Below are positions 3,127 to 15,296 of a stretch of 64,000 bases of DNA, piece after piece. The DNA is from Ignavibacteria bacterium. GTDB taxonomy: Bacteria > Bacteroidota > Ignavibacteria > Ignavibacteriales > Ignavibacteriaceae. Below the pieces are notes generated by a model. That model worked only from the letters and a program-made list of their open reading frames with translations, was not told the origin of the DNA and did not search any database. How positions within the stretch are numbered: the stretch's first letter is position 1; each line of letters begins with the position of its first letter. The DNA lies in the NCBI GenBank assembly GCA_030684555.1, contig JAUXVN010000013.1, forward strand, positions 62,001-126,000, given 5' to 3'. Both the position numbers and the translations under genes were made by a program.

Positions 3127-4029
3127 TTAATCATCATCATGTTTCTCCCTTTTCTTCTTTTCACGCTCGTTTCGATTCTTCCCTTTGGCTTCATCTTCGT
3201 CTCCTGAACGATGGCATTTCACGCAGTTGATAAAATCGGATATTCCTTCTTTACGGTGTTTTTCAGCAATCCGAGCTGGCTGATGTTCATGACAATTATA
3301 ACATGTATAAAATTCGAAACTCTTCTGGACATCATGACACTTACTACAATCGGATGGATGATGTTTATCGAATCTGAAATATTCAGAGTGTTCAAAAGTA
3401 GACGGCTTCCATCCAGAAGTGGTATGACATTTAACACATAATATTTTTGAGGTTAGCCCTGCATGAAAATCGTCTTTAGGAATATTTGTAAAATGACAGG
3501 ATTCACAATCATTTTTATTCGAAGTAATTAGTTCATGTTTAAAAACTGCTGCAGTCCAAGTCTCAGTTGTATGGCATGAGACACAATTTTCAGAAATCCT
3601 ATTGTGAATTTTATCTATCGGCAATTTTTCTCGATGGCAGCTAACACAGTCATTTATTAATTGCACCGGTAAAACATTATGTCTGAAATTAAGTATTGCA
3701 TTTTCTTTTGATAATCCGTTATGCTCTGTATGACAATAATAACATTCAATGTTGTTAATAGATTTATGGAGTAAGTTCGTTTTAGGATTTTGGAATTGAA
3801 GAGTTAAACCTTCTACTGTTTTAATCCCAACTTCAGAGATATTATGACAATCTAAACATTTCTCTGTTGTTGGTCCAGAGCCAACAACATGACAGGCGAA
3901 ACAATTATTACGCAGTCCATCATGTCCTCTTACAAGAACACCCGGATTTACTGTGTAATAAGGAAATAGATAAATAGAAACTAAACCTAAAAGAATTGTT
4001 ATGGAAAAAAACATTCCGGTTCTATACAT
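3127..4029 (-). CDS. Membrane-anchored decaheme c-type cytochrome
   Basis: A 300-residue protein with one N-terminal transmembrane anchor (about residues 5-25) followed by ten CxxCH haem-attachment motifs (CFACH, CLDCH, CYYCH, two CVSCH, CESCH, CVKCH, CSKCH, CYNCH, CVKCH). No CxxCK or other catalytic-haem variant is seen, so it is predicted to carry electrons, not to be a reductase. The ATG at 4029 is chosen because GGAG lies six bases upstream and the start overlaps the stop of the preceding gene (ATGA); a longer reading from 4119 would overlap that gene by 91 bases. The last 25 residues are an alternating basic/acidic tail (KGKNRNEREKKKREKHDDD). Its immediate partner, a di-heme b-type membrane protein, suggests a quinol- or NADH-linked module delivering electrons to the periplasm. 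Confidence 0.85.
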   Translation of the reverse strand: MYRTGMFFSITILLGLVSIYLFPYYTVNPGVLVRGHDGLRNNCFACHVVGSGPTTEKCLDCHNISEVGIKTVEGLTLQFQNPKTNLLHKSINNIECYYCHTEHNGLSKENAILNFRHNVLPVQLINDCVSCHREKLPIDKIHNRISENCVSCHTTETWTAAVFKHELITSNKNDCESCHFTNIPKDDFHAGLTSKILCVKCHTTSGWKPSTFEHSEYFRFDKHHPSDCSKCHDVQKSFEFYTCYNCHEHQPARIAEKHRKEGISDFINCVKCHRSGDEDEAKGKNRNEREKKKREKHDDD

Positions 4030-4604
4030 CACCATCTCCACAAAAGAATAGTTATTATAATGTGAAGCAGGGCAAACGCAGCAAATATCATTGTAAGAGG
4101 CATGTGTACTTTCCTCCACTTCTGCATGGAATCAACTAAAAGAGAATTGAATAACAATTCTTTCTCCATCTCTTCAGTTGATAATGTTGAATCAATAAGT
4201 TCAGTCTTTTTTTTCTTCAAGCTCTCTTTAGCATTGTTGAGTAGATATTTTCCTGTTAAACCACTCGCAACAACTACTAACATTGAGAAGAGTGCAAGCC
4301 AGGGAATAACTGCATTAAAATGAATACCTCCATGAACTAATATCATTAATGCACCAAACCAACCAAGGAATTCGTGATTTTGCAAAAGTTTTTTTGGCGA
4401 ACCGGAACTGATTAGTTTTCTTTTACGAAGTGAATAAATGAATGAAAGTATAATCAGAAGTGTACCGACGAAACCTAAATATCTTCCAATCCAAACAAAC
4501 CCAAATTGATGGAAGATATAATCGATCAATATTGTTAAGATAATTAGAGTAATAAAAAGTAGGACTGAAGGAATTACTTTCGATATAACAAATTTTATAG
4601 CCAT
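4029..4604 (-). CDS. Di-heme cytochrome b-like membrane protein (short paralogue)
   Basis: A protein of about 191 residues with four predicted transmembrane helices. Two helices each carry a pair of histidines exactly 14 residues apart (H-x13-H): HEFLGWFGALMILVH and HMPLTMIFAAFALLH. That is the spacing that binds two stacked b-haems in four-helix-bundle cytochromes b. The same four histidines and spacing occur in the 289-residue protein encoded at 14427-15296, so the two are paralogues. The ATG at 4604 is preferred over an in-frame TTG four codons earlier because a GAG element precedes it by seven bases. Its stop overlaps the decaheme start, implying translational coupling and probably a physical complex. 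Confidence 0.7.
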   Translation of the reverse strand: MAIKFVISKVIPSVLLFITLIILTILIDYIFHQFGFVWIGRYLGFVGTLLIILSFIYSLRKRKLISSGSPKKLLQNHEFLGWFGALMILVHGGIHFNAVIPWLALFSMLVVVASGLTGKYLLNNAKESLKKKKTELIDSTLSTEEMEKELLFNSLLVDSMQKWRKVHMPLTMIFAAFALLHIIITILLWRW

Positions 4605-4688
4605 TAAAAATCTCAAAAAGTTAGAAACAAAAAATAGATAATTTATTTCTATTCTTATATTTATTTAATTGTTAAGTAAGTCGAAAAA

Positions 4689-5071: not shown

Positions 5072-7651
5072 TTAATCCAAAACTCTTTTATTCATTATTT
5101 TGTCACTTGTCCCATTCGGATGACAATTAAGGCAAGCAATACTATTATATGAATAACCATTCACACCGTTGTGTTCGCTGTCCATTTTACTTTTTCTATG
5201 CTCATGACAATCAATACAAGAAAATGTTGTAAAGGTGTTTGGTGTTCGATGACAATCCGAACAAGAGTTCCATTCATTTCGATGTTCTCCAGAATAAATT
5301 GGGAAATACAATACATCATGGTTGAACGATGAGGGGGACCATCCATTTGTAGTGTGACAAACTATACAATCCGTTGGAAACAGTGCCGTTATATGATTCG
5401 GGTTATTTTGTGGATTCTGAAAATCAGATTGATGACATGAATAACAAATTTGAGGAGTGCCTACATAACCGTTAGCATGGCACGATTGGCAGCTTACAGT
5501 CGTGTGCCTGCCAGTCAAAGGGAACTCTGTATTATTATGGTTAAAAGTTGAAGGTGACCATCCATTTGTAGTATGACATACTAAACAATCTGTTGGGAAA
5601 TTTGCAGTCATATGATTGGGATCATTATCGGGATTTTGAAAATCTGCTTGATGACATGAATAACATTCTTGTGGAGTGCCTACATAACCGCTTGTGTGAC
5701 ATGCTTGGCAACTTACAGTAATGTGCTTACCTGTCAAAGGGAACTCAGTATTATTATGGTTGAACAATGATGGAGACCAACCATTTGTACTATGACAAAC
5801 TGAACACTCTGTAGGATAATTTGCAGTAATATGGTTGGGATCATTATTGGGATTTTGAAAATCTTGTTGATGACATGAATAACAGTCTTGTGATGTGCCT
5901 GTATATCCACTTGAATGGCATGATGCACAACTTACTGAAACATGTTTTCCGGTTAATGGGAATGCGGTTGTACCATGATCAAACTGTGCCGGCTGCCAAC
6001 CAACAGTCGTATGACATGTTTTACATTCCTGCGAAAAATTTGCAGTTATATGATTAGGATCATTATTAGGATTTTGAAAATCTTCTTGATGACAGGAATA
6101 ACAAACTTGTGATGTCCCTGTATATCCATTTGAATGGCATGATTCACAGCTTGTCGTGGTATGTTTTCCGGTCAACGGGAATGCAGTTACTCCATGATCA
6201 AACTGTGCCGGCTGCCAACCAGCAGTTGTATGACATGTTTTACATTCATGTGAAAAATTTGCAGTTATATGATTAGGATCATTATTAGGATTTTGAAAAT
6301 CATTCTGATGACATGAATAACAATCTTGTGATGTCCCTGTATATCCACTTGAATGGCATGATTCACAACTTACTGCAGTATGCTTTCCGGTTAATGGAAA
6401 TGCGGTTGTACCATGGTCAAACTGTGTCGGCTGCCAACCAACTGTTGTATGACATGTTTTACATTCTTGTGAAAAATTTGCAATTATATGATTAGGATCA
6501 TTATTAGGATTTTGAAAATCTTGTTGATGACATGAATAACAATCTTGTGATGTCCCTGTATATCCACTTGAATGGCATGATGCACAATTTACTGTACTAT
6601 GTTTTCCGGTTAATGGAAATGCGGTTATACCGTGATCAAACTGTGTTGGCAACCAACCATTCGTTGTATGACATGTTTTACATTCATGTGAAAAATTTGC
6701 AGTTATATGATTAGGATCATTATTAGGATTTTGAAAATCATTCTGATGACATGAATAACAATCTTGTGATGTCCCTGTATATCCGCTTGAATGGCATGAT
6801 GCACAATTTACCGTAGTATGTTTTCCGGTCAATGGAAATGCGGTTACACCATGGTCAAACTGGGCAGGCTGCCAACCATTAGTTGTGTGACATGTTTTAC
6901 ATTCCTGCGAAAAATTTGCAGTAATATGATTGGGAACAGTATTAGGGTTCTGGAAATCTTGTTGATGACATCCATAACAATCCTGATTTAAACCGGTAAA
7001 AGAGTTGGAAGAGTGGCATGCAGAACATTCATTTATTTGATGCCCATCGGTTAAAGGGAAAAAATCGTGAACAAATTTTCCCTCAGCCCATTGTAATCTA
7101 CTTATGGAATGACAATCTGAACAATCGATTGAAAATCCGGCACTTATATGATTGGGATCTACTGTTTTTTCAAAATCAGTTTTGTGGCAATCATAACATT
7201 CAATTCCTTTCGGCTCAAAGATTCTATCAGCATAACCCGAATGACATTGACTACAATCAGCCGACAAGTGACTTCCCAACAAAGGAAATCTTCCCCGCTG
7301 GTGCAATTCTGTTATGTTCGGAATAATCCATGTTGATGTGTTATGGCAAGTAGCACATTCTTTGCTGACACTATTTTGATGAATATCTTTATGACAACTT
7401 AAACAATTTTGTTCAGCTTTGTTGAATACCAATGTTTCATGACATGAATTACAACCTACCGTTTTATGTTGTCCGGTTAATTCAAATCCAGTCGAACTAT
7501 GATTAAACTTAATTGTTTCTGAAAGTGGGATCCATTGTAATTCAGAATGACAATCGGAACATTCTAGATTGAAGTTACTGCCGTGTGGTGATTGGGCATA
7601 AATACCAAATCCTAAGATTACAAATAACACGAAAACCAAAAAAATACGCAT
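5072..7651 (-). CDS. Giant 34-heme c-type cytochrome with tandem three-heme repeats
   Basis: An 859-residue secreted protein with a signal peptide (about residues 1-20, cleavage near YAQ|SPHG) and 34 CxxCH motifs. The architecture is an N-terminal nine-heme region (to about residue 241), seven repeats of exactly 73 residues, and a four-heme C-terminal cap. The first Cys of each unit is at residues 251, 324, 397, 470, 543, 616 and 689, with the cap starting at 762. Each repeat carries three CxxCH motifs plus three further histidines (FDH, GKH and PNH), enough for bis-histidine ligation of all three haems. There is no lipobox, no obvious anchor, and no CxxCK catalytic site. It is a paralogue of the 19-heme protein at 9424-10911, with near-identical ends. 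A 168-bp gap upstream may hold its own promoter, though I see no convincing boxes. The likely role is a periplasmic or extracellular electron wire. Confidence 0.9.
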   Translation of the reverse strand: MRIFLVFVLFVILGFGIYAQSPHGSNFNLECSDCHSELQWIPLSETIKFNHSSTGFELTGQHKTVGCNSCHETLVFNKAEQNCLSCHKDIHQNSVSKECATCHNTSTWIIPNITELHQRGRFPLLGSHLSADCSQCHSGYADRIFEPKGIECYDCHKTDFEKTVDPNHISAGFSIDCSDCHSISRLQWAEGKFVHDFFPLTDGHQINECSACHSSNSFTGLNQDCYGCHQQDFQNPNTVPNHITANFSQECKTCHTTNGWQPAQFDHGVTAFPLTGKHTTVNCASCHSSGYTGTSQDCYSCHQNDFQNPNNDPNHITANFSHECKTCHTTNGWLPTQFDHGITAFPLTGKHSTVNCASCHSSGYTGTSQDCYSCHQQDFQNPNNDPNHIIANFSQECKTCHTTVGWQPTQFDHGTTAFPLTGKHTAVSCESCHSSGYTGTSQDCYSCHQNDFQNPNNDPNHITANFSHECKTCHTTAGWQPAQFDHGVTAFPLTGKHTTTSCESCHSNGYTGTSQVCYSCHQEDFQNPNNDPNHITANFSQECKTCHTTVGWQPAQFDHGTTAFPLTGKHVSVSCASCHSSGYTGTSQDCYSCHQQDFQNPNNDPNHITANYPTECSVCHSTNGWSPSLFNHNNTEFPLTGKHITVSCQACHTSGYVGTPQECYSCHQADFQNPDNDPNHMTANFPTDCLVCHTTNGWSPSTFNHNNTEFPLTGRHTTVSCQSCHANGYVGTPQICYSCHQSDFQNPQNNPNHITALFPTDCIVCHTTNGWSPSSFNHDVLYFPIYSGEHRNEWNSCSDCHRTPNTFTTFSCIDCHEHRKSKMDSEHNGVNGYSYNSIACLNCHPNGTSDKIMNKRVLD
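5369..6901 (-). repeat. Seven tandem 219-bp coding repeats (three hemes each)
   Basis: Seven head-to-tail units of 219 bp, with no indels between them, encode residues 251-761 of the 34-heme cytochrome. The five units at the N-terminal end of the array are nearly identical at DNA level; the last two (5369-5806) are more diverged. Alternation of SQEC and SHEC before the first haem motif of successive units suggests that some duplication steps copied two units (438 bp) at a time. Confidence 0.92.
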
Positions 7652-7819: not shown

Positions 7820-9427
7820 TTAAAATCTAGTATTTATTTCTATAAAAAATCTATAATTAATATTTCTCTCCGAATTTATCATCTCTGCATTTAATGAGAG
7901 GAACGACTTTCCAAAGAGTTGCTGCGTTATATCAAAACCAAACAAATTTTGAGATATCGAAATATTGTTTTGGGATAATGTCCATGCAGTATTACTTGCA
8001 TATATAGACGTTGTTAATCGACCTTCAAAAAAAGGTTTACTAAATCGTGCTGAAATTATATTACCATTAGAAAAACTATTTAGAAGTCTTGAAAAATTTA
8101 ATGAAGCACTTCCCAGAAGGTATGGAACTTGAGACCATGTAACGTATCCATTATAGTTCGAAGAAGATTTTGTATCTCCTCCCATAAATCTATGACCGAA
8201 ATTTAACCCAATATAAACATCCCTCACAGGACGAACCGTTGCGCCAACTCTCAAGCCTTGTCTGGTTTCGTTCTCGTAAAGACTGTCAATAAAACTTTTG
8301 AAAGATTCAAGGTAAACAACGTTCTTTCTTGCATCGTAGGAAGCATTAAATGTTAACATTTTCGAAGCTGAAATTCTTGCACTGAAATAAAAACTGGTTA
8401 AGGATAACTCACTTTTGCGAATTCCCTTATTCATTGAGAAGAAATCCACTTCCGATGAAAAATTAATTTGTGTTAATGGAATGAAATCATTGTAATGTTG
8501 AAAATAGATAAATCTTCTATCGATGGAAGTTTTATACATCTGTTGAAAAAGTGCAAATGAGTTTGAGGTAAAACTTTTATTAATAGAATCATTTCTACTT
8601 AGAAAAAAACCGAATTGCGGAAGAATGTTAGTTGTACTATTGTTATCCCAATTCGGGCGTCTTCCTGCAATTATTCCCCCTTCAAAAAAAGAGAATTTAT
8701 GCTTGTAAAGTGCTCCATCAACTGCGCCTATATTTGAAACAGCATTATCTATAAATCTACCAACTGTAACCGATGATTTTTCATTGATGAGATATTTTAA
8801 TGAAAGGTCATAAATCCTAAGATGTTTGTTACTGCTTAACCGGAACTTATCCGGATCACTATTTTTGTAGGAATAAGTCATGTAATTATTGAATATTAAT
8901 TTTTTATCCATTAGTGCATCTGAATAATATGAGAAAGAGTAACGCCATCTTTGAAATGAATAATTACTGAATTCATTATTAAGTCCTGTATAAGATTGCA
9001 GCGAGAATCTTCCTCTTGATTGAGTAGTAATCCTTTTTTCCGATTTGATAATTTGAGAATTGAATTTCATCTTCGCTGCATTTATAGAATCTATCGATGA
9101 TGAATCTGGTAAAATTTTCTCAATCACTTCAACTTTGTTTTTTACTAAAGCAATCACGGTCTGGTTCATCACCAATTTAATATCTGATATATATTCTCCC
9201 GATACAGATTTGCTTGAGGTTTGCACTACTCTAACTACAGGTAACAATTTTTTATTCACTTCGGTAAAAAGTGTGTCCCCAATATTTATTCCAATAGTAG
9301 ATTCATAACCAACATAAATTTTTTGAATGCTAATAAAAGTAACTCTACCAGCAATTTTCTCTATGTTCGTTTGACTGAACATAATTATTGGTAAAAAAAT
9401 GAATAAAATTAATTTAATCCTTCTCAA
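7820..9427 (-). CDS. Outer membrane beta-barrel (putative porin of the cytochrome conduit)
   Basis: A 535-residue protein with a signal peptide (MRRIKLILFIFLPIIMFSQ) and a small N-terminal domain (about residues 25-105, SH3/flagellar-P-ring-like strands). The remaining 380 or so residues are amphipathic beta-strands with aromatic girdles (RWRYSFSYYSD, YNGYVTWSQVPYLLGSASL), ending in FIEINTRF, a C-terminal Phe. No haem motif is present. The start overlaps the stop of the 19-heme gene by 4 bases (ATGA), so the two are translationally coupled. Placement between two multiheme cytochromes mirrors porin-cytochrome conduits (MtrB/PioB/OmbB-type), but I see no specific sequence signature of those families. 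A specific sheath for a cytochrome is therefore an inference from context. Confidence 0.7.
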   Translation of the reverse strand: MRRIKLILFIFLPIIMFSQTNIEKIAGRVTFISIQKIYVGYESTIGINIGDTLFTEVNKKLLPVVRVVQTSSKSVSGEYISDIKLVMNQTVIALVKNKVEVIEKILPDSSSIDSINAAKMKFNSQIIKSEKRITTQSRGRFSLQSYTGLNNEFSNYSFQRWRYSFSYYSDALMDKKLIFNNYMTYSYKNSDPDKFRLSSNKHLRIYDLSLKYLINEKSSVTVGRFIDNAVSNIGAVDGALYKHKFSFFEGGIIAGRRPNWDNNSTTNILPQFGFFLSRNDSINKSFTSNSFALFQQMYKTSIDRRFIYFQHYNDFIPLTQINFSSEVDFFSMNKGIRKSELSLTSFYFSARISASKMLTFNASYDARKNVVYLESFKSFIDSLYENETRQGLRVGATVRPVRDVYIGLNFGHRFMGGDTKSSSNYNGYVTWSQVPYLLGSASLNFSRLLNSFSNGNIISARFSKPFFEGRLTTSIYASNTAWTLSQNNISISQNLFGFDITQQLFGKSFLSLNAEMINSERNINYRFFIEINTRF

Positions 9428-10911
9428 TCTAATCCTAATCTCTTTAAATGAATTGGTCTATCTTCCCTTCCATTGGGATGGCAGGTGAGACATGCATTGC
9501 TGTTATATGAATATCCACTCACACCGTTATGTTCACTATCCATTTTAGTCTTCCGATGCTCATGACAATCAATACACGAGAATGTAGTAAAGTCATTTGG
9601 GGTTCTATGGCAATCGGTGCAGTTTGTCCATTCGTTTCGATGTTTGCCTGAGTATATCGGAAAATATAAACCGTCGTGATTAAAGGTTGATGGTGTCCAG
9701 CCATTAGTTGTATGACATGATAAACATTCGGTAGGAAAATTTGAAGCAATGTGATTCGGATTGTTTGTTGTTCGTTCATAATCCGACCTATGGCATGTAT
9801 AACAATCAAGTGCGGTACCTGAATAACCGCTCGAATGACATGATTGGCAACTAACAGTTGTGTGTTTGCCGGTTAATGGAAACTGAGTTGTATTATGATC
9901 GAAAGTCGCCGGTTCCCAGCCATTTGTTGAATGACATGATTTACAATCCTGTGAAAAATTTGCTGTAATATGATTTGGATCGTTTAAAGGATTTTCATAA
10001 TCAGAACGGTGACACGAATAACAATCAATTGCAGTTCCGGAATATCCTCCTGAATGACACGATTGGCAACTCGCTGAAGTATGTTTTCCGGTTAAGGGAA
10101 ATCGTGTTATGTTATGATCAAAAGTGGCAGGTACCCATGAATTTATTGAATGACATGCTTTACAATCCTTCTCAAAATTAGCAGTTAGATGTTCTGGATT
10201 TGCAGCACTCACATAATCGCTTTTATGACATTCATAACAATCTTTAGAAAGTCCAATAAAACTGGACTGAGAATGACATAAAAAACAATCATTAATTTTA
10301 TGTCCACCAATCAACGGGAAAATATCATGAACAAAACTTGAATTAGTCCAGGCTACTTGATTAATCGAATGACATAATTTACAATCTGTGCTAAGACCTA
10401 CTGTTTTGTGGTTTGGATTTACTGTATTAGCATAATCAGTTTTGTGACAATTATAACAGTCAACATTTAATGGTTCGAATACTCTATTAGAATAACTTAA
10501 ATGACACTGACTACAATCTGCAGCGAGGTGACTCCCTACTAACGGGAACCTGCTTCTCTGATGCATTTCTGTTATGTTTGAAATATTCCAACTTGCTGTG
10601 TTATGACAATCTGCGCAATCTTTACTTACACTATTCTGATGAATATCTTTATGACAACTCAAACAACTCCGCTCACCGTTTGAAAAAACTAAAGTTTCGT
10701 GGCATGATATACAATTTAAAGTTTTATGTTGTCCGGTTAATTCAAAAACGGTTGTGTTATGTTGAAATTTTATATTTGCAGATATGGGAGTCCATTCTTT
10801 TTCTGAATGACACTCAGAACAATCTAATTTAAAACTACTCCCATGTGGAGATTGTGGAAAAACAATTCCAATAAAAGAAAAAACTAATATGATGTATGGC
10901 AAAATGCGCAT
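9424..10911 (-). CDS. 19-heme c-type cytochrome (short paralogue of the 34-heme protein)
   Basis: A 495-residue secreted protein with a signal peptide and the same mature start (QSPHGS) as the 859-residue paralogue. It has 19 CxxCH motifs: nine in the N-terminal region, two 73-residue three-heme repeats (first Cys at residues 250 and 323), and a four-heme cap starting at 396. The length difference to the paralogue is 364 residues, one less than five repeats. Extra FDH, GKH and PNH histidines per repeat support bis-His ligation. Its start codon lies inside the last 28 bases of the 20-heme gene, and its stop overlaps the start of the barrel gene. This tight coupling suggests it is the partner of that barrel. 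Confidence 0.9.
   Translation of the reverse strand: MRILPYIILVFSFIGIVFPQSPHGSSFKLDCSECHSEKEWTPISANIKFQHNTTVFELTGQHKTLNCISCHETLVFSNGERSCLSCHKDIHQNSVSKDCADCHNTASWNISNITEMHQRSRFPLVGSHLAADCSQCHLSYSNRVFEPLNVDCYNCHKTDYANTVNPNHKTVGLSTDCKLCHSINQVAWTNSSFVHDIFPLIGGHKINDCFLCHSQSSFIGLSKDCYECHKSDYVSAANPEHLTANFEKDCKACHSINSWVPATFDHNITRFPLTGKHTSASCQSCHSGGYSGTAIDCYSCHRSDYENPLNDPNHITANFSQDCKSCHSTNGWEPATFDHNTTQFPLTGKHTTVSCQSCHSSGYSGTALDCYTCHRSDYERTTNNPNHIASNFPTECLSCHTTNGWTPSTFNHDGLYFPIYSGKHRNEWTNCTDCHRTPNDFTTFSCIDCHEHRKTKMDSEHNGVSGYSYNSNACLTCHPNGREDRPIHLKRLGLD
9727..10164 (-). repeat. Two tandem 219-bp coding repeats (three hemes each)
   Basis: Two adjacent 219-bp units encode residues 250-395 of the 19-heme cytochrome. 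They have the same period and motif layout as the seven-unit array in the paralogue at 5072-7651. Confidence 0.85.
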
Positions 10912-12473
10912 TTAAAATCAGCTAATTTGTAATTAATAAATATTATTCCATTTTTTTCAGCAGGTTTATGACAACTATTACATTCAAGTTTACTGTGAGC
11001 ACCACTCAAATTAAACCTTGTTTTATCGTGATTAAATTTTTCCGGTTTCCAATTATCGAACGTATGACATTTTTCACAAACAGTAACACCATTTTCAGAA
11101 AATTGTCCAATGTGAATGTCTTTATGGCAGCCTTCACATTTTTTATCAACTGATTCGAAGACTATTTTTTTGCCGTCATAATCCTGTTTTACATGGCAGT
11201 CAATACAGTTTTTTGCTGCATGTTTTCCTAATAATGCAAATCCTGTCAATTTGTGTTCAAAAGTTACAATATTCCAACCTTCTACGCCATGACACAGCGC
11301 ACAATTGTTGTTAATTAAATATTTTTCTTTCAACTCTGTTTTGTGAATATTTTCATGACAATCGATACAATTATTTCCTTGTTTATCAAAAGTCCAAATC
11401 TCATTCTTCAGATGACAATTACTACATGGAAGAGCTAAATGTTTTCCGGTCAGTGGAAATTTCGTTTTTTGATGTTCTTCTAAAGTGAATAACGAGGGTG
11501 TAAATCCTTCCACTGTATGGCATACCGAACATTCCCCTTTATTTTTATGATTTGCAAATTCAGTTTTGTGATAATCTGAATGACAATCTGAACAATTTTG
11601 GTGTTTCAACTTTGCGGTTAAATTAGTTTTATGACACGTTGAACATTCAACCTGGATATGTTTACCAAGAAGCGGAAAGATTGTTTTGTTATGATCAAAG
11701 GATGATTTATTGATGTCATGAAAACTATTGGTATTATGACATTTGGTGCAATCATTCCCAAATTTTCCGTTGTGAACATCTTTATGACAAGAAAGACAAC
11801 TCGAAAAGTTTATACCTTTAAAAGTCTGAAAATCTTTTCCGTTTTTTTTCTCCTTTGTATGGCATTTTATACATTCAGTATCTTTATGCTTCCCGGTCAA
11901 GTTAAATTTAGATTTTGTGTGATCAAAATTAACTGCTGGTTTGAAGGAATTAAACCCATGACATGAAGAACAATCACTCCCCAAAGTTTTTTGATGATAA
12001 TCAACATGACATGAAAGACAGTTTTGCTCTAATCCTAAAAAAGTAAATTTTCTTTTTTTTAGTTTTGAATCAGAAATATTTTTTGATGTATGACATTTTT
12101 CGCAGTCTGTTTCTTTGTGTTTTCCTTTCAGCTCGTAACCGGTTTTAATATGATCGTAATTGTTTTTATCGAACCGAATTATCTTGAAATTTCTACCATG
12201 GTGCTCACTATGACAATCCCAGCATTCCTTATTCTTAATCTCATTTGAAGAATGATAACCTCTTCCTTTATTAATCAAATTTTTAAGTTCAACATGACAA
12301 TTAAGGCATTTAGATTTTTCAACTTTTTCACCAAGCTGATGACAATTGGTACAATTGCTCAATCCTTCAAGCTTTGCGTGTGCTTTTGATAAATCGCCCG
12401 GAGAAATTTGACTGTAAATTTCAAAAGAAGAAATAAGTAGGATCAAAAAAATAATTCTAATAATATTTATCAT
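10884..12473 (-). CDS. 20-heme periplasmic c-type cytochrome
   Basis: A 529-residue protein with a signal peptide (MINIIRIIFLILLISSFEIYSQ) and 20 CxxCH motifs, spread to the very C-terminus (CAFCHTSY). Recurrent GKH, FDH and DYH/DIH histidines between the motifs could provide sixth ligands. The architecture is looser than in the 19- and 34-heme proteins: repeats of about 65-75 residues are visible but are interrupted by lysine-rich loops. No CxxCK site is present. Its start overlaps the stop of the Fe-S/FAD oxidoreductase by 4 bases. The lysine richness and position suggest a soluble periplasmic carrier between the inner-membrane module and the outer-membrane conduit; that order is inferred from gene order only. 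Confidence 0.87.
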   Translation of the reverse strand: MINIIRIIFLILLISSFEIYSQISPGDLSKAHAKLEGLSNCTNCHQLGEKVEKSKCLNCHVELKNLINKGRGYHSSNEIKNKECWDCHSEHHGRNFKIIRFDKNNYDHIKTGYELKGKHKETDCEKCHTSKNISDSKLKKRKFTFLGLEQNCLSCHVDYHQKTLGSDCSSCHGFNSFKPAVNFDHTKSKFNLTGKHKDTECIKCHTKEKKNGKDFQTFKGINFSSCLSCHKDVHNGKFGNDCTKCHNTNSFHDINKSSFDHNKTIFPLLGKHIQVECSTCHKTNLTAKLKHQNCSDCHSDYHKTEFANHKNKGECSVCHTVEGFTPSLFTLEEHQKTKFPLTGKHLALPCSNCHLKNEIWTFDKQGNNCIDCHENIHKTELKEKYLINNNCALCHGVEGWNIVTFEHKLTGFALLGKHAAKNCIDCHVKQDYDGKKIVFESVDKKCEGCHKDIHIGQFSENGVTVCEKCHTFDNWKPEKFNHDKTRFNLSGAHSKLECNSCHKPAEKNGIIFINYKLADFKCAFCHTSY

Positions 12474-13807
12474 TTTCGATGAGACAACAATGCCTCTCCA
12501 AATTTTTTAGTAATAGTAATTCCGGTTTTCTCAAGAAACTGGGTGGGTAGTTCACCTCCGGCAAAAATATAGACCAGATCATTCGTCAGTTTAATAGACT
12601 CTTTTGTTACTGAATTTTCTAACAGAACTAAATCATCTTCAATCTCAATAACGTTTGTGTTAAATAAAATATTGACTAAACCCTGTTTTCCTGCATGAAG
12701 AATACGTTCATTGTTTTTAGGTTTTATTCGTGCAAAATTAGCAGCTCTATAAGAAAGAGTTACATCATTAGAATTTTCTGCAAGCAATAATGCCGATTCA
12801 ATTGCAGAATCACCACCGCCAACAACCAATATTTTCTTCTTGTTTATTAATTCAGGTTCCAACAAACGATAATAAACATTTTCCTTTTCCTCTCCTTTAA
12901 CACCAAGTTTGCGCGGTGAGCCTCTTCTGCCGATCGCTAAGAGGATTGAAGAAGCCGTATAGTTTTTTTTATCTGTAAAGAGAGTAAAAACATCCTTTTC
13001 TTTTTCAATTGCAGTTACTTTTTCTAACTCATTAATGCTAATAATATTTTTTTCGAGAACTGATTTCCATATAGAGATAAGTTCCGCTTTTGAAGTTTCG
13101 GTTAATTTAATTTTACCCCAAAGCGGGAGTTCCATTGGTGAAGTCATAACAATTTTATCCCGTGGAAAATTGGAGACTGTTCCACCAAGACTCTCCTGTT
13201 CGATAATTTGAAATTTCAAATTGTGCTTCTTTGCATTTAGAGCAGCAGAAATTCCGGCTGGACCCGCACCGACGATAATCAAATCATTTTCTGCATTTGA
13301 TTTTTTCGGTAGCTTTTTGACAATATAATTAACTGCTTGCTTTCCCTGTTCAACGGCATTCTTAATCAAACCCATCCCACCAATTTCACCTGCAATAAAA
13401 ATGAGCGGAACACTAGTTTCAAATTCAGAACTTACATGTGGAAGTTCAACTCCGCGTTTCTCGGTTCCAATACATAAAGTTATTGCTTGAACAGGGCAAG
13501 CATGAAAACATGCACCATGTCCAACACATCTTGAAGCATTTATTACTGCGGCTTTACCGTTTCTCCATCCAAGTATATCTTTTTCCGGACATGCTTCAAT
13601 ACATGCACCGCTTCCGATACAAGAATTTATATCAACAACAGGATGAAGAGATACGGGTTCATAAAATCCACCTTCTTTCGCCTTCATTATTTTCTGCTCT
13701 GTAATGGAAGTGCGCTTTGCTGTCTTTTTGAGGTATCTCCAAAAAATGACGATAACTACTATAGCTGTTATGACGTATGCTGCAATATTTTCAATTAAAA
13801 CTTCCAT
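12470..13807 (-). CDS. Membrane-anchored ferredoxin-FAD-NAD(P)H oxidoreductase
   Basis: A 445-residue protein. Residues about 5-24 form one transmembrane helix followed by KKTAKR, placing the rest in the cytoplasm. Next comes a ferredoxin-like domain with two motifs, CIGSGACIEACP and CVGHGACFHACP. Then follows a thioredoxin-reductase-like flavoprotein fold with an FAD site (VGAGPAG, about residue 177) and an NAD(P) site (VVGGGDSAIE, about residue 330). Both ferredoxin motifs lack the second cysteine of the usual CxxCxxCxxxCP (Ser and His occupy that place), so the cluster type is uncertain. It is encoded 3 bases after the TPR gene and overlaps the 20-heme gene. The likely role is exchanging electrons between NAD(P)H and the membrane/cytochrome chain. 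Confidence 0.82.
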   Translation of the reverse strand: MEVLIENIAAYVITAIVVIVIFWRYLKKTAKRTSITEQKIMKAKEGGFYEPVSLHPVVDINSCIGSGACIEACPEKDILGWRNGKAAVINASRCVGHGACFHACPVQAITLCIGTEKRGVELPHVSSEFETSVPLIFIAGEIGGMGLIKNAVEQGKQAVNYIVKKLPKKSNAENDLIIVGAGPAGISAALNAKKHNLKFQIIEQESLGGTVSNFPRDKIVMTSPMELPLWGKIKLTETSKAELISIWKSVLEKNIISINELEKVTAIEKEKDVFTLFTDKKNYTASSILLAIGRRGSPRKLGVKGEEKENVYYRLLEPELINKKKILVVGGGDSAIESALLLAENSNDVTLSYRAANFARIKPKNNERILHAGKQGLVNILFNTNVIEIEDDLVLLENSVTKESIKLTNDLVYIFAGGELPTQFLEKTGITITKKFGEALLSHRK

Positions 13808-13810
13808 AAA

Positions 13811-14416
13811 CTATAAACGATCTATTGAGGTTGAAGCTAATTGTGCGGTAGGTGTTTCGGGATATTTTTTAATTATTTCCTGCCAGATTTTTTTTGCTTT
13901 ATCTTTATCACCTTTAGCGGCGAAAATTGCACCAAGATTGTATTCAGCTTGTTCATCATTTTTATCAAAAGATAAAATTCGATTCGTGAATTCTTCAGCT
14001 TTGATTAAGTCTTGATTATTGAAGTATATTATTGATAAGTTGAATAGAACATCTTTTCTTTTGGAATTAATTTTCAATATTTGGTCGTAATACTGAATAG
14101 CTTCAAGCGGTTTATGACCTTCATTTAGAAGGTCAGCATATTGGCGCATAGACAAAGTATCTTTTGGATTTGATTCAACTTTTAATTTTAGATCCGCTAA
14201 TTGTTTGCGAAAATTCTCATTTACATTCGCCCTTGTTGGAGTTTCGGCATTCCCCAGGTTTTTATGTACATCGTCCATCGGCATTTGTTTCTCCTCAATC
14301 GAACTGAGTGGAGTTGATGTTTTCTCCTTTTCAAATTGAGTTACAAGAATGACACCAACAACCAGAATTAAAAAAAATGCCGGATAAAATATTTTTGTTG
14401 AAAATTTAAAATTCAT
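13811..14416 (-). CDS. Membrane-anchored TPR protein of the cytochrome operon
   Basis: A protein of about 201 residues. The ATG at 14416 is chosen because AGGAG lies six bases upstream; an earlier in-frame ATG at 14449 would overlap the preceding gene. An N-terminal transmembrane segment (FFLILVVGVILV) is followed by a charged linker and three to four tetratricopeptide repeats (e.g. ALEAIQYYDQILKINSKR-like, AEEFTNRILSFDKNDEQA, AKKIWQEIIKKYPETP). The layout resembles CcmH/NrfG/CycH-type TPR proteins that present apocytochromes to haem lyase, and its operon encodes cytochromes, so a scaffolding or maturation role is plausible. The alternative is a generic complex-assembly factor. Confidence 0.7.
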   Translation of the reverse strand: MNFKFSTKIFYPAFFLILVVGVILVTQFEKEKTSTPLSSIEEKQMPMDDVHKNLGNAETPTRANVNENFRKQLADLKLKVESNPKDTLSMRQYADLLNEGHKPLEAIQYYDQILKINSKRKDVLFNLSIIYFNNQDLIKAEEFTNRILSFDKNDEQAEYNLGAIFAAKGDKDKAKKIWQEIIKKYPETPTAQLASTSIDRL

Positions 14417-14426
14417 AATTAACTCC

Positions 14427-15296
14427 TTAAAAAATCCATTTATATCCAAAAAGAATCGTTACTCCAACGTGGATTAACATAATAACGAACATCGTAATTG
14501 CAAAAGGCAGATGGAATATATGCCAATATCTAAAAAGCCGATGCATCAATTTTAAGTGCTGAATTCTTCTGGACATTATTAATCTTTCTTTTAATCTGTT
14601 TATAGTTTCAACAACTTCAATTTTACTAAGTCCTTTTTCTGTTTTCAGTATAGATTTTATCGACCTTAATAATTTCCGAATCTGAAACATATCTCTAACT
14701 ATGAATATTAAACTGTTTACCGCCGTAATATTCCGATATCTTTCCCCTGATAAATATGAATCTACTTTAGACCTAATATCATTATTTAGATTTATGCTTG
14801 ATGTAAAACTTTGTTCTAATTGATTTTGAAGTTCTTCTAAGTCAATCTCTTTTCCTTGAATGGTTCGAGGAATCTGAATGTAAATAAATCTACCGATCAC
14901 ACCACTCAAAACTACTGCAACCATACTCCAAAAACTTATTGAGACTATTCCGCCAAATTTAAATGCCGTATGAAACAATACAAGCAATGGTCCAACACTG
15001 CACAAAAACATATGGAACTCTAACCAATTCTTTAAATAGCCGAATGAAAACAAAACACGCATTCTTTTACGAATCATATAAACAGAAACTCCAATGATCA
15101 TCATCAGAGTACCGATTATTCCTAACCCGTGACCGATATAACCACTTGGCTTTAGCAAATCATGTTTAATATCAAACGGACGCTCTTCCAATTGAAGTGA
15201 ATAGTAATCAACTCCATGATAAATCAGAAGAAATAGTGAGGTTATCCCTACGGCAAAAAATATTCCGATATAAATACGATGAAGAGTTTTATTCAT
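14427..15296 (-). CDS. Di-heme cytochrome b-like membrane protein (long paralogue)
   Basis: A 289-residue protein with about five transmembrane helices, first gene of the 12-kb cytochrome locus. Two helices carry H-x13-H pairs (HMFLCSVGPLLVLFH and HLPFAITMFVIMLIH), the geometry of a two-b-haem four-helix bundle. A cytoplasmic or periplasmic insertion of about 90 residues with coiled-coil character (about residues 145-245) separates the third helix from the last. The final 30 residues and the histidine layout match the shorter paralogue at 4029-4604. It could be a quinol dehydrogenase feeding the multihemes, or it could pass electrons from the adjacent NAD(P)H oxidoreductase. No family name is certain. 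Confidence 0.68.
   Translation of the reverse strand: MNKTLHRIYIGIFFAVGITSLFLLIYHGVDYYSLQLEERPFDIKHDLLKPSGYIGHGLGIIGTLMMIIGVSVYMIRKRMRVLFSFGYLKNWLEFHMFLCSVGPLLVLFHTAFKFGGIVSISFWSMVAVVLSGVIGRFIYIQIPRTIQGKEIDLEELQNQLEQSFTSSINLNNDIRSKVDSYLSGERYRNITAVNSLIFIVRDMFQIRKLLRSIKSILKTEKGLSKIEVVETINRLKERLIMSRRIQHLKLMHRLFRYWHIFHLPFAITMFVIMLIHVGVTILFGYKWIF

Follow-up and report, generated by a model that had tools for sequence, protein, structure and literature searches.

A predicted 22-stranded barrel as candidate outer-membrane sheath of a probable electron conduit encoded in one operon of Bacteroidota

In the PCC3 conduits described by He et al. (2017, PMC5566968), a porin is combined with an inner-membrane protein (IMP) and two cytochromes, one of them periplasmic (median 21 hemes) and the other extracellular, with a median of 34 hemes and a maximum of 85. 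For PCC3 and PCC4, conduits of iron oxidizers, the same authors describe an IMP of about 300 residues with five helices, two WX3HX13H motifs and an SGXXG motif. The residue-to-heme ratio of PCC3 is low (22-39), and its description concerns Proteobacteria (PMC5566968). In the Gallionellaceae, 21-27 hemes are reported for the periplasmic protein and 10-35 for the outer protein (PMC10734462).

Bacteroidota are common in sediment, wastewater and lakes, and in the literature consulted no electron-transfer system made of a barrel and a wire is described for them. Earlier reports that touch on the subject come from humic lakes (unnamed conduits without homology to known ones in 'a number of Bacteroidetes', PMC6344600), from activated sludge (very large cytochromes in Saprospiraceae, PMC11495043) and from an anode (six cytochromes together with a barrel in one Bacteroidetes bin, PMC8258643). 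A description of the operon or the barrel presented here was not found in the open-access literature, the supplementary tables with the conduits of PMC6344600 lying outside the scope of the search.

The locus lies in a stretch of 64,000 nucleotides from an Ignavibacteria bacterium, which is called the window below (Table 1). We read its barrel as the outer-membrane sheath of an electron conduit encoded in one operon, and give this reading a probability of roughly three in four. The conserved gene order is IMP, Fe-S/FAD oxidoreductase, 20-heme cytochrome A, variable cytochrome B and barrel. From the IMP gene through the barrel gene, the six genes of the window are separated by -23, +3, -4, -28 and -4 bases, which makes a single transcript with coupled translation very probable. 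The CxxCH motifs number 20 in A, 19 in B, 34 in cytochrome C and 10 in the cytochrome of the second module.

Table 1. Position of the genes in the window and the basis on which each was assigned
Feature	Position	Strand	Basis
Outer-membrane barrel (predicted)	7820..9427	-	ORF calling, family alignment, AlphaFold2 model
19-heme variable cytochrome B	9424..10911	-	CxxCH count, heme spacing, family heme numbers
20-heme cytochrome A	10884..12473	-	CxxCH count; heme number nearly constant in the family
Membrane-anchored 2[4Fe-4S]/FAD-NAD(P) oxidoreductase ('FdNOR')	12470..13807	-	Pfam, PDB relatives, N-terminal hydrophobic segment
TPR protein, optional member	13811..14449	-	Pfam; found in 34/80 loci
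Di-heme b-type inner-membrane protein (IMP)	14427..15296	-	Two-helix WX3HX13H, with SGXXG between
34-heme cytochrome C, paralogue of B	5072..7651	-	CxxCH count, heme spacing, gene gap
Small membrane-anchored protein, 114 aa	4689..5033	-	Position only; OB-like by inspection only
Second small b-type cytochrome	4029..4616	-	Two HX13H pairs and SGXXG
10-heme cytochrome of the second module	3127..4119	-	CxxCH count

An earlier, sequence-only reading of this DNA had reported that the barrel ORF overlaps the stop of the 19-heme gene by four bases, and the coordinates agree with this. It had also placed the barrel 'between two giant cytochromes'. The 34-heme gene is indeed found downstream, starting 168 bases after the end of the barrel gene. 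However, C is a paralogous add-on outside the conserved unit, and the conserved partners of the barrel are the upstream 20-heme and 19-heme genes. The position between two giants is thus a local accident. C was considered as the true partner of the barrel as well, and was rejected because of the 168-base gap and because an extra cytochrome behind the barrel occurs in few loci only (e.g. L188 and L194).

The 114-residue protein encoded beyond C has no match in Pfam or NCBIfam. Further on, the second b-type gene, which is shorter, overlaps the 10-heme gene by 91 bases. This pair (window 3127-4616) is possibly a second inner-membrane module beside the conduit.

The IMP of the window counts 289 residues and contains both W motifs as well as the SGXXG. 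In the family alignment, the histidine pairs and the SGXXG are invariant in all 19 rows; among 17 more distant copies, 6 lack the first W. The protein has two histidine pairs, as in a di-heme b cytochrome, and by inspection its hydropathy fits five helices. With its roughly 300 residues, five helices, two WX3HX13H motifs and SGXXG, it resembles the IMP described for PCC3 (PMC5566968). The oxidoreductase has one N-terminal anchor; as judged from Pfam and PDB relatives, it also contains two [4Fe-4S] motifs and an FAD/NAD(P) part like that of thioredoxin reductase. This combination makes it likely that the protein is linked to NAD(P)H or ferredoxin.

The two conserved cytochromes differ in their heme numbers, which were counted on distinct, complete copies, drawn from related and hence non-independent genomes. 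Of 93 copies of cytochrome A, 72 have 20 hemes and a further 15 have 23, whereas B ranges from 9 to 67 hemes (n = 88). For B, 68 of the 88 counts equal 1 modulo 3; automated ORF picking breaks some genes, and the few odd counts are probably artefacts. The mostly 10+3k heme numbers follow from the heme positions. The B protein is built from a 7-heme N-cap, triheme modules of about 73 residues and a 3-heme C-cap, so that k triheme modules are added to a decaheme core. Apart from a divergent 9-heme copy (L111), the smallest intact B proteins consist of the two caps, with 10 hemes. In the window, the 19-heme B and the 34-heme C have their first seven heme positions in common (31, 67, 83, 99, 133, 152 and 177). 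After the N-cap, the spacings of both repeat at about 32, 15 and 26 residues until the closing three hemes are reached, and C displays the same design with five triheme modules more. In some Bacteroidota of other classes (L104 and L111), a 9- or 10-heme gene of its own separates the barrel from a 34- or 38-heme gene, as though wire and decaheme core had been divided over two genes.

Neither the cytochromes nor the IMP had an informative match among PDB sequences. The model of the 20-heme A was uninformative as well (pLDDT 79, pTM 0.41, no PDB match), a model without hemes being a poor test.

As in PCC3, a cytochrome with near-constant heme number (A, 20 or 23) is accompanied by a large and variable one (B, 9-67), the residue-to-heme ratios (means of 26.8 for A and 26.2 for B) fall inside the range of 22-39, and the porin gene lies alongside the cytochrome genes (PMC5566968). 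Based on the IMP motifs and on this pair of cytochromes, the locus would work like PCC3, and its inner parts probably belong to the PCC3 family. The suggestion of the sequence-only reading that the locus may represent an 'independent type' of conduit is consequently too strong, as the IMP and the pair of a 20-heme and a variable cytochrome fit the published PCC3 architecture.

The barrel gene itself encodes 535 residues, from a TTG start to the terminal NTRF, and its product contains neither a cysteine nor a heme motif. A frame that stays open over this length, and of which 27 of the 58 other related genomes have a full-length homologue, is far above chance. The N-terminus is hydrophobic at residues 4-22 (signal peptide), and almost all family members share the C-terminal Phe. 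An AlphaFold2 model was built with 38 homologues (pLDDT 83.4, pTM 0.63). It consists of the signal helix, an SH3/OB-like all-beta domain (residues 22-96), a disordered linker (100-132) and 22 strands (137-534). The earlier description of a signal-peptide barrel with an N-terminal SH3-like domain and a C-terminal Phe is thereby borne out.

Across the 38 homologues, 21 of the 22 strands are free of indels, and the length and strands of the barrel are the same whether B has 10 or 67 hemes. Assuming a shear of n+2, the geometry of 22 strands gives about 40 Å between backbones, compared to 47 Å for 26 strands; the strand count that had been proposed as a check thus predicts a barrel that is not too narrow. 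If both barrel ends are periplasmic, the outer loops measure 8.7 residues on average. The best conserved stretch of 25 residues within the barrel follows strand 13 (residues 363-387) and is a candidate contact with a conserved partner.

Comparison of the model with known structures returns several kinds of barrels. The best VIA-align matches are TonB-dependent receptor barrels (Z 19.4, rmsd 4.7, 329 residues), which are likewise 22-stranded. Pilus ushers come first in Foldseek, with low TM-scores, and AlgE exporters are also among the structural matches. MtrB is not among the 50 VIA-align matches listed, which excludes no relation. At the level of sequence, the barrel has no Pfam or NCBIfam match, and none of 26 family members matches any Pfam model at E 0.1, the MtrB/PioB profile (PF11854) included. 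Against the MtrB of its own genome, the barrel reaches an hhalign probability of 1%, in agreement with the earlier remark that an MtrB signature is missing. That genome encodes an MtrAB-like pair elsewhere (G000:C19:1-6569; L061, L201), a 10-heme protein of 302 residues followed by an MtrB_PioB protein of 841 residues. The profile of the barrel yields chance matches only among PDB sequences, and no relative was found in the viral collection.

The distribution of the barrel was followed in 59 related genomes, its own included. It is present in 30 of them, full-length in 28 and as a fragment in two. The 20-heme A occurs in exactly the 28 genomes with a full-length barrel, and the other 31 have neither A nor a full-length barrel (Fisher 2e-17, with the kinship of the genomes ignored). 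Intact IMP is found in these 28 as well, and two more (G014 and G005) carry broken copies only. G014 has one of the two barrel fragments, adjoining the broken b-type gene; the unit therefore decays together. The decayed copies (L059, L060 and L100) comprise this locus, the second barrel fragment, which is found in G028, and, in G293, a barrel frame interrupted by two stops. Gain or loss can be observed within genera, the unit being present in G002 and absent from G030, for example. In a phylum-wide sample, 34 of 395 genomes, from several classes, encode the barrel.

The surroundings of the barrel were read in 48 barrel-seeded loci, of which one starts at a contig end, leaving 47 for assessment. 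In 46 of these, a cytochrome with at least 7 hemes lies on the same strand, at most three genes upstream of the barrel. The exception is L100, a cytochrome-free place in which the barrel frame contains two stops, so that homologues without cytochromes come down to one broken copy. In L058, the barrel occurs together with a 10-heme gene only. A second set comprises all 80 loci with both IMP and barrel, including IMP-fetched ones and some duplicates (L059, L060 and L100 were left out). Here the oxidoreductase is found in 80/80 and the 20-heme gene in 79/80. The pairwise identities of barrel, A and IMP in 65 loci correlate with Spearman coefficients of 0.82-0.86, which 0 of 500 shuffles reach. 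As a matter of sequence identity, this shows joint inheritance and not contact. Shared ancestry inflates both this correlation and the statistics on heme numbers. The sequence-only reading had put the barrel forward as candidate sheath for a cytochrome crossing the outer membrane; the width of the 22 strands and the obligatory linkage to cytochromes support this.

A copy of the operon from a cultured organism is located on plasmid pEMTOL02 of the type strain Emticicia oligotrophica DSM 17448. It encodes, in this order, an IMP, the oxidoreductase, a 23-heme and a 40-heme cytochrome and the barrel. The latter is 29% identical to the barrel of the window (E 2e-56) and is the sole plasmid match among 72,556 records. 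The plasmid operon (L065 8899-21483) is accompanied by a CcsA cytochrome c biogenesis gene and a GW-domain protein.

In the proposed conduit, the IMP would exchange electrons with quinone. Together with the membrane-anchored oxidoreductase, it would link the quinone or the NAD(P)H/ferredoxin pool to A. Cytochrome A would then cross the periplasm and pass the electrons on to B. The near-fixed heme number of A matches the fixed width of the periplasm, which suggests that A bridges this space, while B, with its free number of hemes, would reach outward. This match of heme count and span length is an argument and not a measurement. B, in its minimal form of 10 hemes, or its end, would be located inside the 22-stranded barrel, and any further triheme modules would extend outward as a wire. 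No other outer-membrane protein is encoded in the unit, and the barrel gene overlaps that of B by four bases; for these reasons the conserved part of B is expected in the lumen, and we somewhat favor it over A for this place. The barrel would insulate the heme chain within the membrane, and the SH3-like domain may dock the periplasmic cytochrome. What the analysis shows directly is the anatomy, the operon, the predicted fold, the constant co-occurrence and the modular heme numbers; the placing of a cytochrome in the barrel and its identity, the docking, the cell location and the direction in which electrons flow are inferred from these. Speaking against such a conduit, neither an evident lipoprotein cysteine nor a lipobox or other known export signal was seen on inspection of B, which leaves it with no accounted route to the outside.

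The barrel could instead belong, as a remote relative, to the OmbB or PCC3 porins, and the locus would be the Bacteroidota branch of a known conduit family without a new type of barrel. This has to be taken seriously, although we lean against it. The IMP and the pair of cytochromes fit PCC3 (PMC5566968), OmbB-like porins have been reported by HMM in Ignavibacteria, and a Burkholderiales OmbB-like porin is described behind 24- and 49-heme cytochromes (both PMC7399161). The Pcc porins were predicted to have 18-22 strands (PMC4245776), a range that includes the 22 of the window barrel. However, up to 42 strands are given for PCC3 porins, by an older predictor (PMC5566968), against the 22 from AlphaFold2 here. 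The missing match in NCBIfam and Pfam points the same way, with the limit that these libraries may not include the OmbB/PCC3 porins.

It is unlikely that the barrel is an export channel, which would pass cytochrome B to the surface and not stay around it as a permanent sheath. The overlap of both genes and the lack of an export signal in B would suit such a channel, as would the ushers and AlgE exporters among the structural matches. However, c-type hemes are attached in the periplasm, so that the holo-cytochrome would need to pass. Moreover, a barrel that keeps its length and strands over the whole range of heme numbers in B fits a sheath at least equally well.

A role as nutrient porin, solute transporter or TonB-dependent transporter of the ordinary kind, with a place in the operon by chance, is very improbable for the barrel in spite of its TonB receptor-like fold, given the absence of a recognizable plug domain (26 of 26 members without a Pfam match, and only about 75 residues of SH3/OB-like domain before the linker), the short inferred outer loops and the all-or-none co-occurrence with the 20-heme A.

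The sheath remains the preferred reading. In its widest form it is tentative: the barrel family would be unrelated to all named conduit porins and would serve a complete line from the cytosol to the outside within one operon. This line would comprise an NAD(P)H/ferredoxin oxidoreductase, a di-heme b cytochrome, a 20-heme ruler of the periplasm and an outer wire made of a single chain. The reach of this wire would depend on how many triheme modules of 73 residues extend a decaheme core threading the barrel. For the Bacteroidota, the barrel provides a sequence marker of one such system, and the plasmid operon of E. oligotrophica DSM 17448 offers a cultured handle for experiments. With a near-constant 20-heme partner next to a modular 10+3k partner, it becomes testable what determines how long a cytochrome wire is.

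When compared to MtrCAB, MtoAB and PioAB, the locus shares the principle of an outer-membrane barrel combined with multiheme cytochromes. Its barrel, however, has no detectable sequence similarity (by the hhalign comparison given above), is smaller, and is tied to a 20-heme and a variable cytochrome. In the Geobacter Pcc system (OmbB-OmaB-OmcB), the barrel is clustered with periplasmic and outer cytochromes too, and the 22 strands fall in the range given for its porins (PMC4245776). The heme numbers differ, its cytochromes having 8 and 12, and an IMP and an FAD oxidoreductase are unmentioned in that description (PMC4245776). The OetABI system of ANME-partner bacteria is likewise defined by neighborhood, with a barrel near multiheme cytochromes; compared by description, its gene content differs (PMC10553843).

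Plasmids were also searched for PCC3 proteins to compare their porins, and only porin-less IMP modules were retrieved. These modules, on plasmids of Proteobacteria and Pontibacter (L066-L069, L198-L200), consist of a 2Fe-2S or FAD reductase, a b-type protein and a small cytochrome c3, some of them near heavy-metal, CcmA-I or hydrogenase genes. Their IMP is related to that of the window (21-24% identity, five plasmid matches), whereas they have no barrel and a small cytochrome only.

The oxidoreductase, present in all of the 80 loci, is absent from the published four-gene description of PCC3 (PMC5566968). Overall, the locus can be read as a conduit of PCC3-like design in Bacteroidota; its barrel is small and was set beside the PCC3 and OmbB porins by description only, and a pyridine-nucleotide oxidoreductase is built in.
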